A stretch of DNA of 27,749 nt from a virus, in the IMG/VR virus record IMGVR_UViG_3300023310_000063, positions 1-27,749 of that record; one strand, given 5' to 3'. The notes beneath the pieces are model-generated. The model was not told where the DNA came from and made no database searches. It worked only from the letters and a program-made list of their open reading frames with translations. Made by a program: the position numbers and the translations under genes. Positions 18,558 to 23,628 of the stretch are shown piece by piece; position 1 is the stretch's first letter; each line of letters begins with the position of its first letter.

Positions 18558-18672
18558 ATCGCCACAGCCGCATTTTGATAGGGTGAAACGAGCATTCACT
18601 AGACTAGCAGCACGAAAGTGCGCACCGACGCGTGGACACGGTGTTGACGAAAGAGCGTGTCATGCCTGTTAA
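18550..18672 (+). CDS. Possible 40-residue ORF between portal and MuF genes
   Basis: The frame starts with an ATG inside the end of the portal gene and ends with a TAA that overlaps the likely MuF start. The peptide is basic with several cysteines at the end (RKCAPTRGHGVDERACHAC). There is no good ribosome site. It is kept because it fills the 104-base gap and is coupled at both ends, but it may be chance. Confidence 0.25.
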   Translation: MLKSPQPHFDRVKRAFTRLAARKCAPTRGHGVDERACHAC

Positions 18673-19921
18673 GTACGGTTCGCTGCCCTTCGACGCGCAG
18701 ATAGCATTCTTTCGCAAAAAACTGGCTTTGCCAACACGCGGATGGACAGATATTTGGCAAAGCAATCATGATCATGCATTTGTGGTGGCAGGTGCAACCA
18801 AGATGGCATTGGTTGAAGATATGCAAGCGGCGGTACAAAAAGCGATCGAGAAGGGAACCACGATTGCAGAGTTCCGCAAAGATTTTGATAAGGCTGTCAG
18901 CGATCACGGCTGGAGTTATAACGGCTCGCGCGGCTGGCGCACGCGGTTGATCTACCAAACCAACCTACGCACATCGTATGCAGCAGGTCGGCACGAGCAG
19001 CTGCAAAAGTTGGAGTACTGGCAATATCATCATTCCATTGGCGCAAACAATCCGCGTGAACAACACTTGGCTTGGGATGGTTTGGTGCTGCCAAAAGATG
19101 ATCCATTCTGGAATACGCACTATCCGCCGAATGGCTGGGGTTGTCGTTGTTATGTCACAGGCATGAGCAAAACCCGGATGCAACAGAAAGGTTTGAGTGC
19201 AGGGAAATCACCCACTATCCAAACTCAAAAAGTAAACGTCGGCGTATCAGGGCCCAATCCGCGCACCGTGGAAGTACCCGAAGGCATCAGCCCAGGCTTT
19301 GCTTATGCACCAGGGCAAAGTGCTTGGATGCATGCGTATGATCTCAAACAAGGGAAGCAGTCACCTTTCCCCTTTGAACAGAAAGATAATGGCTTATTTA
19401 AAAAGATCCCCGAACGCGGAGCTGTCGATTTAATGCTTAATCCTCGAGCCTTTCCAGAAAGTGAAATACTACCATCGATGCAGGCAGGTCAGGATGCCGC
19501 CTATGCAAAATTATTTTTGAAGAAGTTTAATGCTGATATTGGTAAGCCTGTCACATTTATTGATGCCAGTGGTGATGCGATGGTCATATCAGATGCCATG
19601 TTTAAGAATGATGAAGATGCATGGAAAATGGGCAAAGGCACACGCAGCGCTCAGCTGAATATGCTCGCGGATTCTATCAAAAATCCTGACGAAATCTGGG
19701 GTTGGGTTGAATGGCACAGGCGTGATAAAAAGGCAATCAGTAGCCGTGCTTATGTTAGCAGGTATATGGTTGGCACTGTGCAATGGCTTGCGATAACGGT
19801 CATGCAACGCAGTGAGGGGAAATGGCAAGGCACAACGGTACATACATCAAGCAGCTCGGATGATTTTAATCAAAAAGTTGAAAAGAACAGGCGTGGGGTT
19901 CGCTTGTATCGAAGACCATAA
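18662..19921 (+). CDS. MuF head morphogenesis protein with C-terminal BECR-type nuclease (toxin) domain
   Basis: From the ATG at 18662 the product has 419 residues. Residues 1-175 match the Mu F/SPP1 gp7 head protein: YGSLPFDAQIAFFRKKLALPTRGWTDI, WRTRLIYQTNLRTSYAAGR, and the signature HYPPNGWGCRCYV. After a linker (about 175-260), residues 260-419 resemble the phage Barnase-EndoU-ColicinE5-RelE-like nuclease domains fused to MuF proteins: LNMLADSIKNPDEIWGWVEW, a central hydrophobic strand, WQGTTVHT, and a final RRGVRLYRR. MuF proteins are carried into the head and may be injected with the DNA, so the domain is a candidate effector acting on RNA in the recipient (inference). An in-frame GTG at 18632 would add ten residues. 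A strong terminator follows. Confidence 0.88.
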   Translation: MPVKYGSLPFDAQIAFFRKKLALPTRGWTDIWQSNHDHAFVVAGATKMALVEDMQAAVQKAIEKGTTIAEFRKDFDKAVSDHGWSYNGSRGWRTRLIYQTNLRTSYAAGRHEQLQKLEYWQYHHSIGANNPREQHLAWDGLVLPKDDPFWNTHYPPNGWGCRCYVTGMSKTRMQQKGLSAGKSPTIQTQKVNVGVSGPNPRTVEVPEGISPGFAYAPGQSAWMHAYDLKQGKQSPFPFEQKDNGLFKKIPERGAVDLMLNPRAFPESEILPSMQAGQDAAYAKLFLKKFNADIGKPVTFIDASGDAMVISDAMFKNDEDAWKMGKGTRSAQLNMLADSIKNPDEIWGWVEWHRRDKKAISSRAYVSRYMVGTVQWLAITVMQRSEGKWQGTTVHTSSSSDDFNQKVEKNRRGVRLYRRP

Positions 19922-21032: not shown

Positions 21033-22166
21033 ATGACGACAGCAAAAACACCCCCACATATTCATGCATTCTCGGCTGGCGAGCATATCACCGCCGCTGG
21101 CGACAAAGTCCGCATTACTGCGAATGATCTAAAAGCATCCGCAGCAGCCTACAATCCTGAACTTCATGAAGCTCCGATTGTGATTGGGCATCCCACTGGT
21201 GAATCCCCTGCCTACGGCTGGATTGAATCTTTCGCTGTGCAAGGCAATGATTTCATCGCACAGCCTACGCAAGTCAACCCAGATTTTGCCGAACTGAATA
21301 ATTCAGGCGCATTCAAAAAGCGCTCGATGTCTTTTTACCATCCCGAAAACAAAGCCAACCCAGCCCCCGGCGTTTGGTATCCGCGCCATCTTGGATTTTT
21401 AGGTGCGCAACCCCCGGCGGTTAAGGGTCTGCGCGATTTCAATTTCCAAGAAGATGATGGCGATAGCATCACCATTGAATTTGGCGAATGGGAAGATCGG
21501 GTAGAAGCAGGCGTATTCCGCAGCTTGCGCGAATGGATTCTTGCCAAGTTTGGCAAAGAAGATGCCGATGCCGCCATCCCAAGTTGGGATGTTGATCTTC
21601 TTCAAGAAGCTGCTGTAAAACAAAAAGAAGAGCCCACAACTTCATTTTCAGAAAATAATCCAACGGAGGACACTATGACCCGAGAAGAAAAAGCGGCGGC
21701 GCAAGCCGAGCTTGATACACAAAAAGCATTGCTGGATACGCAAGCAGCCGAATTTGCCGAGCGTGAAACAGCATTGGCAAAGCGTGAGCAAGCAGCGCAT
21801 CGCACAACCTGCGTAGAATTCACTGAAAGCCTAGTGGCAGATGGCAAAGTATTGCCCGCTCAAAAAGATAATCTTATCGAATTTATGGCAGGTCTGGAAC
21901 ATGTTGAGACTGTCGAATTCGGTGAAGGTGATGGCACAGTCGCTAAAACACAGCTGAAATTTATGCAGGATTACCTAGCAGCGCAACCGAAGGTTGTTGC
22001 TTTTGGCGAGCATGATCAAAGCGATGGCAAATCCATTGATTTGGATGATGCGCCCGCATTGGCAAAAGCCGCTGTGGAATTCCAAGAATCCGAGGCTGCT
22101 GCAGGCCGAGCCATCTCAGTCACTCAGGCTGTTGCTCATGTTAAAAAATCGCAAGGGGAAAACTAA
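21033..22166 (+). CDS. Capsid maturation protease with C-terminal scaffold part (Mu I/Z-like)
   Basis: The 377-residue protein begins with a Mu gpI-type protease region: DKVRITANDLKASAAAYNPE, APIVIGHPTGESPAYGWIESF, and FKKRSMSFYHPENKANPAPGVWYPRHLGFLGAQPPAVKGL. The His and Ser within these blocks are candidates for the catalytic residues. The C-terminal half is a charged coiled coil typical of scaffolds (AQAELDTQKALLDTQAAEFAERETALAKREQ). The protease cleaves scaffold and capsid proteins during head maturation. The ATG has only a weak ribosome site. It follows the late-activator dyad 2. Confidence 0.9.
   Translation: MTTAKTPPHIHAFSAGEHITAAGDKVRITANDLKASAAAYNPELHEAPIVIGHPTGESPAYGWIESFAVQGNDFIAQPTQVNPDFAELNNSGAFKKRSMSFYHPENKANPAPGVWYPRHLGFLGAQPPAVKGLRDFNFQEDDGDSITIEFGEWEDRVEAGVFRSLREWILAKFGKEDADAAIPSWDVDLLQEAAVKQKEEPTTSFSENNPTEDTMTREEKAAAQAELDTQKALLDTQAAEFAERETALAKREQAAHRTTCVEFTESLVADGKVLPAQKDNLIEFMAGLEHVETVEFGEGDGTVAKTQLKFMQDYLAAQPKVVAFGEHDQSDGKSIDLDDAPALAKAAVEFQESEAAAGRAISVTQAVAHVKKSQGEN
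21675..22166 (+). CDS. Nested scaffold protein, in-frame internal start (Mu Z-like)
   Basis: GGAGGAC lies just before an in-frame ATG at 21675, which would give a 163-residue protein made of the coiled-coil C-terminal part only. Mu uses the same design, with scaffold Z expressed from within protease gene I. The acidic, proline-poor linker before it (residues 190-214 of the long form) is a natural domain border. Confidence 0.7.
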   Translation: MTREEKAAAQAELDTQKALLDTQAAEFAERETALAKREQAAHRTTCVEFTESLVADGKVLPAQKDNLIEFMAGLEHVETVEFGEGDGTVAKTQLKFMQDYLAAQPKVVAFGEHDQSDGKSIDLDDAPALAKAAVEFQESEAAAGRAISVTQAVAHVKKSQGEN

Positions 22167-22543
22167 TGCACAATCCAGGATTGATTAAAAACTTACTCGC
22201 GGCTGCCGTCATCGCGCCATACCGCATCGTTAAATTTGGTGTAGATGATAACCATGTTGTTCAAAGCGCAGCAGCTACCGATGCATTGATTGGTGTTACT
22301 GGCCAGCTCGGGGCACTTGCAGCAGAGAGTCGAGTTGATATCACGCTTAGTGGCGTGGTCTATGTTGAATACGGCGGTGTCGTAACACGCGGCGATCCGC
22401 TCACCTCCGATGCCAAGGGCATGGCTGTTGTGGCAATACCAGCTGCCGGCGTGAACAACCGCATCATCGGCTTTGCAATGGTTTCTGGTGTGCTCGGAGA
22501 TGTCGGCAGTGTCGATATCAGCAAAAACAAAATTCAGGGATAA
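22166..22543 (+). CDS. DUF2190 capsid decoration (cement) protein
   Basis: The 125-residue product carries the DUF2190 pattern: PYRIVKFGVDDNHVVQSAAATDALIGVTGQLG, RVDITLSGVVYVEYGGVVTRGDPLTSDAKGMAV and a C-terminal FAMVSGVLGDVGSVDI. Such beta-rich proteins trimerise on the outside of the capsid to stabilise it. The ATG overlaps the last codon of the scaffold gene by one base. Its place between scaffold and capsid genes is usual for Mu-like phages. Confidence 0.85.
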   Translation: MHNPGLIKNLLAAAVIAPYRIVKFGVDDNHVVQSAAATDALIGVTGQLGALAAESRVDITLSGVVYVEYGGVVTRGDPLTSDAKGMAVVAIPAAGVNNRIIGFAMVSGVLGDVGSVDISKNKIQG

Positions 22544-22554
22544 GGGAAAAACAA

Positions 22555-23628
22555 ATGAAAAAATCTAATAGTATTATAACATTCGCACTGCTGGCCGTTG
22601 TGGTAGTAGCGATCGGCGGGGTAGACCCAGCCAGCGCATCTGGCTCGATAGATTTTGGTGGGCTTGGTGGTGTTAGTCTAGCTGCATTGGCATTTGGCGG
22701 GATCACCAATTCACCAATGCCAATCATCCCGGAACTTACCGCTATTGCGATAGGTTACAAAAACAAGAAGATGATTGCTGATGATGTGTTACCGATTGTG
22801 CCAGTTGGTAAACAGGATTTCACATACTTCGAATACGCACTGGAAGATGGTTTTACAGTGCCTGATACAAAAGTTGGCCGCACCTCAAAACCCAACGAAG
22901 TAGAATTTTCAGGCACATCGAAAACAGAATCAACAGAAGATCACGGCTTGGATTATCCGATTCCACAGCGTGATATTGACAATGCTCTGCCGAATCACAA
23001 TCCGCTTGGACGCGGCGTGGAAAAAGTCATGAACTTGATCGAACTTGATCGTGAGATTCGTGTATCAAGCATGGTGTTTGATCCAGCTAATTTTGCCGCC
23101 AATAATAAGCAGGCTCTAGCTGGGACTTCGAAGTACACCGATCCAACATCTACACCGATCACGGATATTCGTACTGCTCTCGATGCTATGTTGCTGCGGG
23201 CCAACAAAATGACAATTGGTCGCTTGGCCTTCTCAGCGCTTCAAACGCATCCGGATATCGTTAAAGCTACACATCGCAATTCTGGCGATTCTGGTGTAGC
23301 TGCGCGCCAAGCCATTGCTGAACTCTTCGAACTCGAAGATATTTATGTAGGTGAAGCGCGTGTGAACACTGCTCGCAAAGGCCAAGTGCTAGCTTTGCAA
23401 CGTGCATGGGGTCCGCATATCTGCTTGCACTATACCGATAATATGGCTGATACGAATGGTGGCCAGGCATCGTTTGGTATAACTGCCTCTTTCGGCGGCC
23501 GCCGTGCCGGCTCTCTCCCTGATTCGAATATTGGTCTCGATGGTGGTCAGCGTGTTCGTGCCGGTGAGTCCGTCAAAGAACTACTGATTGCTCCTGATCT
23601 GGGTTATTTGATCTCCAATGTAGTTTAA
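22555..23628 (+). CDS. Major capsid protein with a signal-peptide-like N-terminus
   Basis: The 357-residue protein has a Mu-type HK97-fold capsid body from about residue 55 (PELTAIAIGYKNKKMIADDVLPIVPVGKQDFTYFEY, then LDYPIPQRDIDNA, LDREIRVSSMVFDPANF and a C-terminal VKELLIAPDLGYLISNVV). The first 30 residues are MKKSN followed by a hydrophobic run (IITFALLAVVVVAIGG) and ASASG, which looks like a Sec signal peptide. A second hydrophobic stretch (GVSLAALAFGG) follows. Many Mu-like capsids lack such a leader. It may be removed by the maturation protease or anchor assembly at the membrane (inference). A terminator follows the gene. Confidence 0.9.
   Translation: MKKSNSIITFALLAVVVVAIGGVDPASASGSIDFGGLGGVSLAALAFGGITNSPMPIIPELTAIAIGYKNKKMIADDVLPIVPVGKQDFTYFEYALEDGFTVPDTKVGRTSKPNEVEFSGTSKTESTEDHGLDYPIPQRDIDNALPNHNPLGRGVEKVMNLIELDREIRVSSMVFDPANFAANNKQALAGTSKYTDPTSTPITDIRTALDAMLLRANKMTIGRLAFSALQTHPDIVKATHRNSGDSGVAARQAIAELFELEDIYVGEARVNTARKGQVLALQRAWGPHICLHYTDNMADTNGGQASFGITASFGGRRAGSLPDSNIGLDGGQRVRAGESVKELLIAPDLGYLISNVV

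Follow-up and report, generated by a model that had tools for sequence, protein, structure and literature searches.

A signal-peptide-like leader on the B3-type, HK97-fold major capsid protein of a transposable tailed phage

HK97-fold capsid proteins are generally regarded as soluble cytoplasmic subunits, and in gp5 of HK97 an extra N-terminal segment of approximately 100 residues, the delta domain, precedes the fold. Among described phages, B3, JD18 and KS10 (phrog_1005) have capsid proteins whose bodies are 46–57% identical to that of the protein analysed here. B3 and KS10 also share with our locus an arrangement in which a small phrog_673/DUF2190 gene comes after the protease gene and ahead of the capsid gene; their capsid proteins are leaderless, with starts lying a few residues upstream of the body, and JD18 has no match before residue 50. 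The only solved structure found by sequence is 3BJQ (BB3626, a phage-related protein of Bordetella bronchiseptica), for which the match starts at query residue 57 and the aligned part carries no leader; the JBD30 capsid chain was not among the sequence relatives in PDB searches. No description of signal-peptide-like leaders on HK97-fold capsids was found in open-licence PMC papers, as judged from listings, titles and the opening parts of abstracts, and in passages of one such paper the mentions of signal peptides concern a holin and a hypothetical protein (PMC9658991).

The window, i.e., the whole stretch of 27,749 bases analysed in this work, is the virus record IMGVR_UViG_3300023310_000063. 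Its genes include a Mu-type transposase (phrog_310), a terminase, a Mu-type portal, a Mu F-like protein, a head protease, a phrog_673 gene, the capsid gene, a head-tail adaptor and baseplate genes, a content that identifies the window as a tailed, transposable phage whose head is of the B3 type. The Mu F-like minor head protein (18662–19921) has a C-terminal PBECR2 domain (barnase/EndoU/RelE-like nuclease). Within the protease gene, a nested in-frame start at 21675, preceded by GGAGG at 21665–21669, probably marks a separate scaffold, by analogy with B3ORF36Z. The gene at the phrog_673 position is named DUF2190 in KS10 and VPHZ6; it encodes 266 amino acids in locus L003 (2009–2809) vs. 125 in the window, and ORFs of 262–266 amino acids with similar last residues occupy this position in L100, L102, L106 and L110. 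The features of the head region are as follows.

21033–22166, forward strand: head maturation protease (phrog_976, E-value 1.1e-113)
21675–22166, forward strand: probable separate scaffold of 163 amino acids, from the nested in-frame start within the protease gene (analogy with B3ORF36Z)
22166–22543, forward strand: phrog_673 gene between protease and capsid genes, labelled "head scaffolding protein" in PHROGs
22541–22546, forward strand: TAAGGG, Shine-Dalgarno-like site of the long start, overlapping the stop codon of the preceding gene
22555–23628, forward strand: capsid ORF with ATG start, 357 amino acids, B3-like (Mu-type) major capsid protein
22555–22710, forward strand: leader, residues 1–52, an N-terminal extension of 52 codons directly before the HK97-fold body
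22555–22572, forward strand: n-region MKKSNS, with two lysines
22573–22620, forward strand: uncharged hydrophobic core, residues 7–22 (AlphaFold2 helix at 3–19)
22621–22677, forward strand: acidic loop, residues 23–41, with two D and no K or R (AlphaFold2 pLDDT below 50 at 26–33 and 35–41)
22630–22638, forward strand: A-S-A, residues 26–28, putative signal-peptidase-I-like site read from the sequence
22678–22704, forward strand: second hydrophobic stretch, residues 42–50, LAALAFGGI (AlphaFold2 helix at 42–46 only)
22711–23628, forward strand: HK97-fold capsid body, residues 53–357 plus stop (phrog_1005, E-value 9.5e-96; 3bjq)

PHROG 1005, "major head protein", matches residues 53–357, and in all 40 of the matches listed (out of 65) from phage records the match starts at residue 50 or later. 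The structure 3bjq (E-value 1.5e-22 by sequence) is also the best match by fold (6.9e-23), followed in the Foldseek order by the shells of lambda, Haloferax tailed virus 1, Sf14 and encapsulin, and almost all of the named entries among the 50 BFVD matches listed are capsid proteins, the others including one labelled as a prohead protease and one as uncharacterised. AlphaFold2 models the window protein with a confident HK97 body (mean pLDDT 87.5), an N-terminal helix of moderate confidence (block pLDDT 62 and 72) and a loop of very low confidence; the long form L143 was modelled with a helix at residues 2–23 and no second long helix. The phrog_1005 match, the HK97 fold and the order of protease, phrog_673 and capsid genes identify the protein as a B3-type HK97-fold major capsid protein. 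Instead of the short N-terminus usual in this family, it carries a 52-residue leader in which the positive n-region, the uncharged h-region and the AxA site of a Sec signal peptide can all be recognised. The hydrophobic core, IITFALLAVVVVAIGG, consists of 16 uncharged hydrophobic residues, and the ASA motif is directly followed by SG. Residues 1–32 contain the most hydrophobic 16-residue run (Kyte-Doolittle) among the 131 window ORFs of at least 60 amino acids, a hydrophobicity matched by 12 of 20,000 shuffles of the capsid protein. The preliminary description had read this anatomy (MKKSN, a 16-residue hydrophobic run, ASA-SG and a second hydrophobic stretch) correctly from the sequence; its designation as a good Sec signal peptide holds for the n-region, h-region and AxA site, but plain Sec export is unlikely, as discussed below. 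The second hydrophobic patch measures approximately 9–14 residues in the leaders, and a long second helix is absent from both AlphaFold2 models.

A total of 308 sequences (307 loci, many of them overlapping, and the window) were gathered, and the 306 with a readable body start, which leaves out L008 and L306, gave 212 distinct bodies. The leader is carried by 17 of these 212, a biased sample seeded with long forms, so that the counts are not frequencies. If the leader is taken to end where the body model begins (residue 51 in the window is its first position), the 17 leaders are 35 to 54 residues long, that of L110 being seven residues longer if a GTG start is used. An earlier cut of 165 near bodies comprised 13 long forms, 151 with a start codon between −9 and +4 of the body, and one (L101) truncated at the contig end. 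The comparison with related capsids that had been proposed at the outset was run on B3 and six other named phages, KS10, TJ1, POA1180, Bise, VPHZ6 and StM171; all seven annotated starts are short and none has a leader. Of 398 genomes of the Actinobacillus phylum, 43 had a match, and among the matches inspected there (30 loci and five more) L136 was the only long form. This locus (L136:1327–2397) encodes a distant capsid relative with a signal-like leader, and its nearest kin in the set lack one. As a variant trait present in 17 of 212 distinct bodies, the leader marks a subgroup and does not exclude its carriers from the B3-type family; the protein belongs to a known capsid family and has a new N-terminal trait.

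Before any role can be discussed, it has to be asked whether the protein starts at a later codon, with the upstream part untranslated or serving only as an RNA or regulatory leader. The window does contain an ATG at residue 55 (22717), close to the body, and such an internal start had been the worry of the preliminary description; however, no Shine-Dalgarno-like site precedes this codon, which also lacks conservation, whereas the upstream start has TAAGGG and is followed by codons under selection. A Shine-Dalgarno-like site precedes 16 of the 17 long starts, L074 being the one without. In the 14 leaders covered by our table of internal starts, start codons between −12 and +13 of the body have a site before one only, the GTG at +13 in L090, and L019 has no start codon at all in this interval; in L294, L295 and L299, examined separately and up to +2, no start codon has a site. 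Points in favour of a later start are a GTG where the body of L144 begins, flagged under a looser rule for the GGTGA preceding it, and the almost identical DNA of L003 and L100 across the leader. Selection on the leader was assessed in two pairs. The informative one is the window and L019 (79% identical), where dN/dS is 0.184/1.635 = 0.11 for the leader and 0.138/1.396 = 0.10 for the body; since dS is above 1 and near saturation, only the likeness of these two ratios is reliable. In the same comparison, 30 of the 45 differences in the leader fall at third codon positions, and 37 of 51 residues are identical vs. 16 of 51 codons. The leaders of L003 and L100 differ three times in 43 codons, twice changing the residue, too few to inform on selection. 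Between a point approximately 108 bases upstream of the capsid start and the end of the leader, the DNA of these two loci differs at 5 of 240 positions (L003:2761–3000 vs. L100:1761–2000), while most of the 60-base blocks flanking this stretch on both sides have 4–20 differences, a near-identity that reflects either recent exchange or constraint at the DNA level. A later start was thus rejected as highly implausible on the grounds of codon-level selection, of the sites before the long starts, and of internal starts that, apart from those of L090 and L144, have no site. Assembly error was rejected as well, because the capsid gene is identical, base for base, in another contig (L001) whose sequence departs from that of the window in other places. 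Judged from the codons, the reading frame of this normal HK97-fold capsid protein includes the leader as a conserved segment, and the leader is very probably translated.

As to its origin, the suggestion of a fusion with another sequence stands insofar as the leader is an added segment, but a donor was not found. In a Pfam scan of eight leaders at E-values up to 10, with four residues missing from the L143 leader, nothing reached the cut-off; a tblastn search of 50,697 phage records with the leader of the window, at E-values up to 10 and with the low-complexity filter on, gave zero matches. Two quick trees each needed 7 changes, of which the starred branches forced only 4 and 2. The contig-cut L101 was counted as short in the first tree; the second, thinned at 85% identity, had 91 rows (16 long, 74 short, and L101 unlabelled) and left out L136, four of its kin, L018, L262 and short rows below 380 bits. 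Uniting the 16 near-family long forms in a single clade is compatible with the data (p-AU 0.306), and the claim of many independent gains of the leader was dropped. Likewise, a clade of L090 with the L003 group gave a constrained tree better than the free tree (p-AU 0.842), and movement of the leader between capsid lineages was dropped; the likeness of the L090 leader to those of the L003 group (hhalign E-value 3.6e-6, with 0 of 100 shuffles as high) may represent plain descent, because the joint clade fits. Joining the L003 group and the window pair was not rejected either (p-AU 0.27), and their leaders are weakly alike (score 10.6 vs. a shuffled maximum of 10.2), whereas the score of L090 with the window group was reached by 9 of 100 shuffles and that of L110 with the L003 group by 23 of 100, neither being distinguishable from shuffled sequence. 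L136 stands apart, its body being 60% identical to the short L129 and approximately 26% to the other long forms. The near-family leaders may thus have had one origin or several, with L136 clearly separate.

Leader sequences differ greatly, with a G-h-h-x-P-(D/E) turn recognised by eye in several, but their layout is common. In all 17 the n-region contains K or R and is followed by a hydrophobic stretch of 16 uncharged residues; a loop then leads to a second uncharged hydrophobic patch that precedes the body. The absence of charge from both hydrophobic stretches (17/17) is partly by choice, since they were picked as the most hydrophobic windows. The ratio of K+R to D+E is 33/3 in the n-regions vs. 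3/21 in the loops (Fisher's test, 4e-10, 17 leaders), and without the near-copy L100 the split persists (2.9e-10, 16 leaders); the loop is net negative in 15 of 17 leaders and net positive in none. An earlier split of 14 leaders had given 26/2 and 5/18, respectively, with L003 and L100 as exceptions of net positive loop, these two having two arginines and two histidines in the stretch after the hydrophobic core. As far as residues can tell, the leader charges obey the positive-inside rule. An AxA motif within 12 residues of the hydrophobic core occurs in 11 of 16 leaders (L100 left out), vs. a shuffled mean of 5.0 (p = 0.0016), the 12-residue window reaching into the second patch in leaders with short loops; the motif is absent from the other five.

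We envisage, tentatively and at somewhat short of an even chance, that the leader is a signal-anchor bringing capsid subunits to the inner membrane, with the body kept in the cytoplasm. The nascent capsid protein would be brought to the membrane by the leader with its N-terminus inside; the acidic loop would cross or dip into the membrane, the body remaining cytoplasmic; subunits gathering there could nucleate the procapsid; and the leader would then be cut off, either at the AxA site by signal peptidase or by the head protease of the phage itself, or be kept as a hydrophobic arm. The positive-inside charges, the AxA excess, the sites before the long starts and the like selection on leader and body relative to L019 all favour this anchor, and the second patch is counted for it because plain export does not require such a patch. 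Against it, the second patch is short for a membrane span, L003 and L100 have arginines after the hydrophobic core, some leaders lack AxA, selection is known from one pair, and short-form relatives such as B3 make capsids without a leader. Moreover, the AlphaFold2 models give one N-terminal helix and no second arm: a single span would place the body on the outside, and topology, cleavage and purpose are for that reason what we infer. Of the three readings offered in the preliminary description, the membrane nucleation anchor fits best with the positive-inside charges, the uncharged second patch and a cytoplasmic body, although a maturation leader keeps a share of the probability.

A rival reading is an assembly peptide similar to the delta domain, packing inside the procapsid, aiding assembly and being cut by the head maturation protease, never at a membrane. 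N-terminal segments of HK97-fold capsids can act as cleaved scaffolds, as in HK97, and a head protease is encoded two genes upstream. In JBD30, residues 6–25, the capsid N-terminal arm, form a helix in the procapsid and unfold on maturation (PMC11445458), a rearrangement that keeps an internal assembly peptide alive as a rival. Nevertheless, we consider it rather unlikely: the protease together with the probable nested scaffold start means that the leader need not be the scaffold, a soluble scaffold needs neither charge bias nor signal-peptide grammar, and most gathered relatives manage without a leader. It is also conceivable, if improbable, that the leader is a retained hydrophobic arm of the mature capsid, packing in the lumen or between subunits with neither targeting nor cleavage; its direct junction with the N-terminal arm of the body and its protein-level conservation relative to L019 agree with this, but the positive-inside charges and AxA sites are left unexplained. 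Genuine Sec export, in which the protein would be secreted and processed, wholly or in part, for a role outside the cell, could draw on the n-h-c grammar, the AxA motif in 11 of 16 leaders and the single N-terminal helix of both AlphaFold2 models, and yet appears very unlikely. DNA has to be packaged into the shell within the cytoplasm, and the second hydrophobic patch sets the leader apart from a plain signal peptide. Records G000, G003 and G004, which may be incomplete, gave one match each and no second capsid gene of the same family, so that a second, leaderless copy in the same record was rejected; export of the body is unlikely because the record yielded no other capsid gene of this family.

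Returning to the signal-anchor, a selected signal-peptide-like leader on the shell protein of several Mu-type phages would offer a natural system for studying where and how heads nucleate, and its presence or absence within one family makes its role directly testable. It would also caution annotation pipelines against treating every signal peptide on a capsid gene as an error. T4 head assembly begins at the inner membrane via the gp20 portal with gp40 and YidC, a precedent for heads starting there; in T4 it is the portal, which has no recognisable transmembrane sequence, that sits at the membrane (PMC4493910), whereas here the capsid subunit itself has a hydrophobic leader. The accessible text of a further paper contains nothing on procoat topology (PMC9360617). 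The delta domain of HK97 gp5 and the leader are both extra N-terminal segments, but the delta domain is not signal-like. The procoat of M13 has a positive n-region, a signal-peptide-like helix, an acidic periplasmic loop, an AxA site, a second hydrophobic stretch and a cytoplasmic C-terminal part. The leader described here likewise has a positive n-region, an acidic loop, AxA and a second hydrophobic stretch, and by their residues the leaders reproduce the positive-inside charges and acidic loop of the procoat hairpin. Its action might resemble the early step of M13 procoat insertion, without membership of that family. It is possible, though doubtful, that in a lineage of transposable tailed phages the shell derives from a membrane-inserted precursor, with each subunit entering the inner membrane through a procoat-like leader, heads nucleated there by the capsid protein itself and leader cleavage releasing the shell; if so, the front end of the coat pathway of filamentous phages would sit on an HK97-fold capsid. 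The M13 procoat is a small filamentous-phage coat with a full second span, whereas the body in the window is an HK97 fold of 305 residues.
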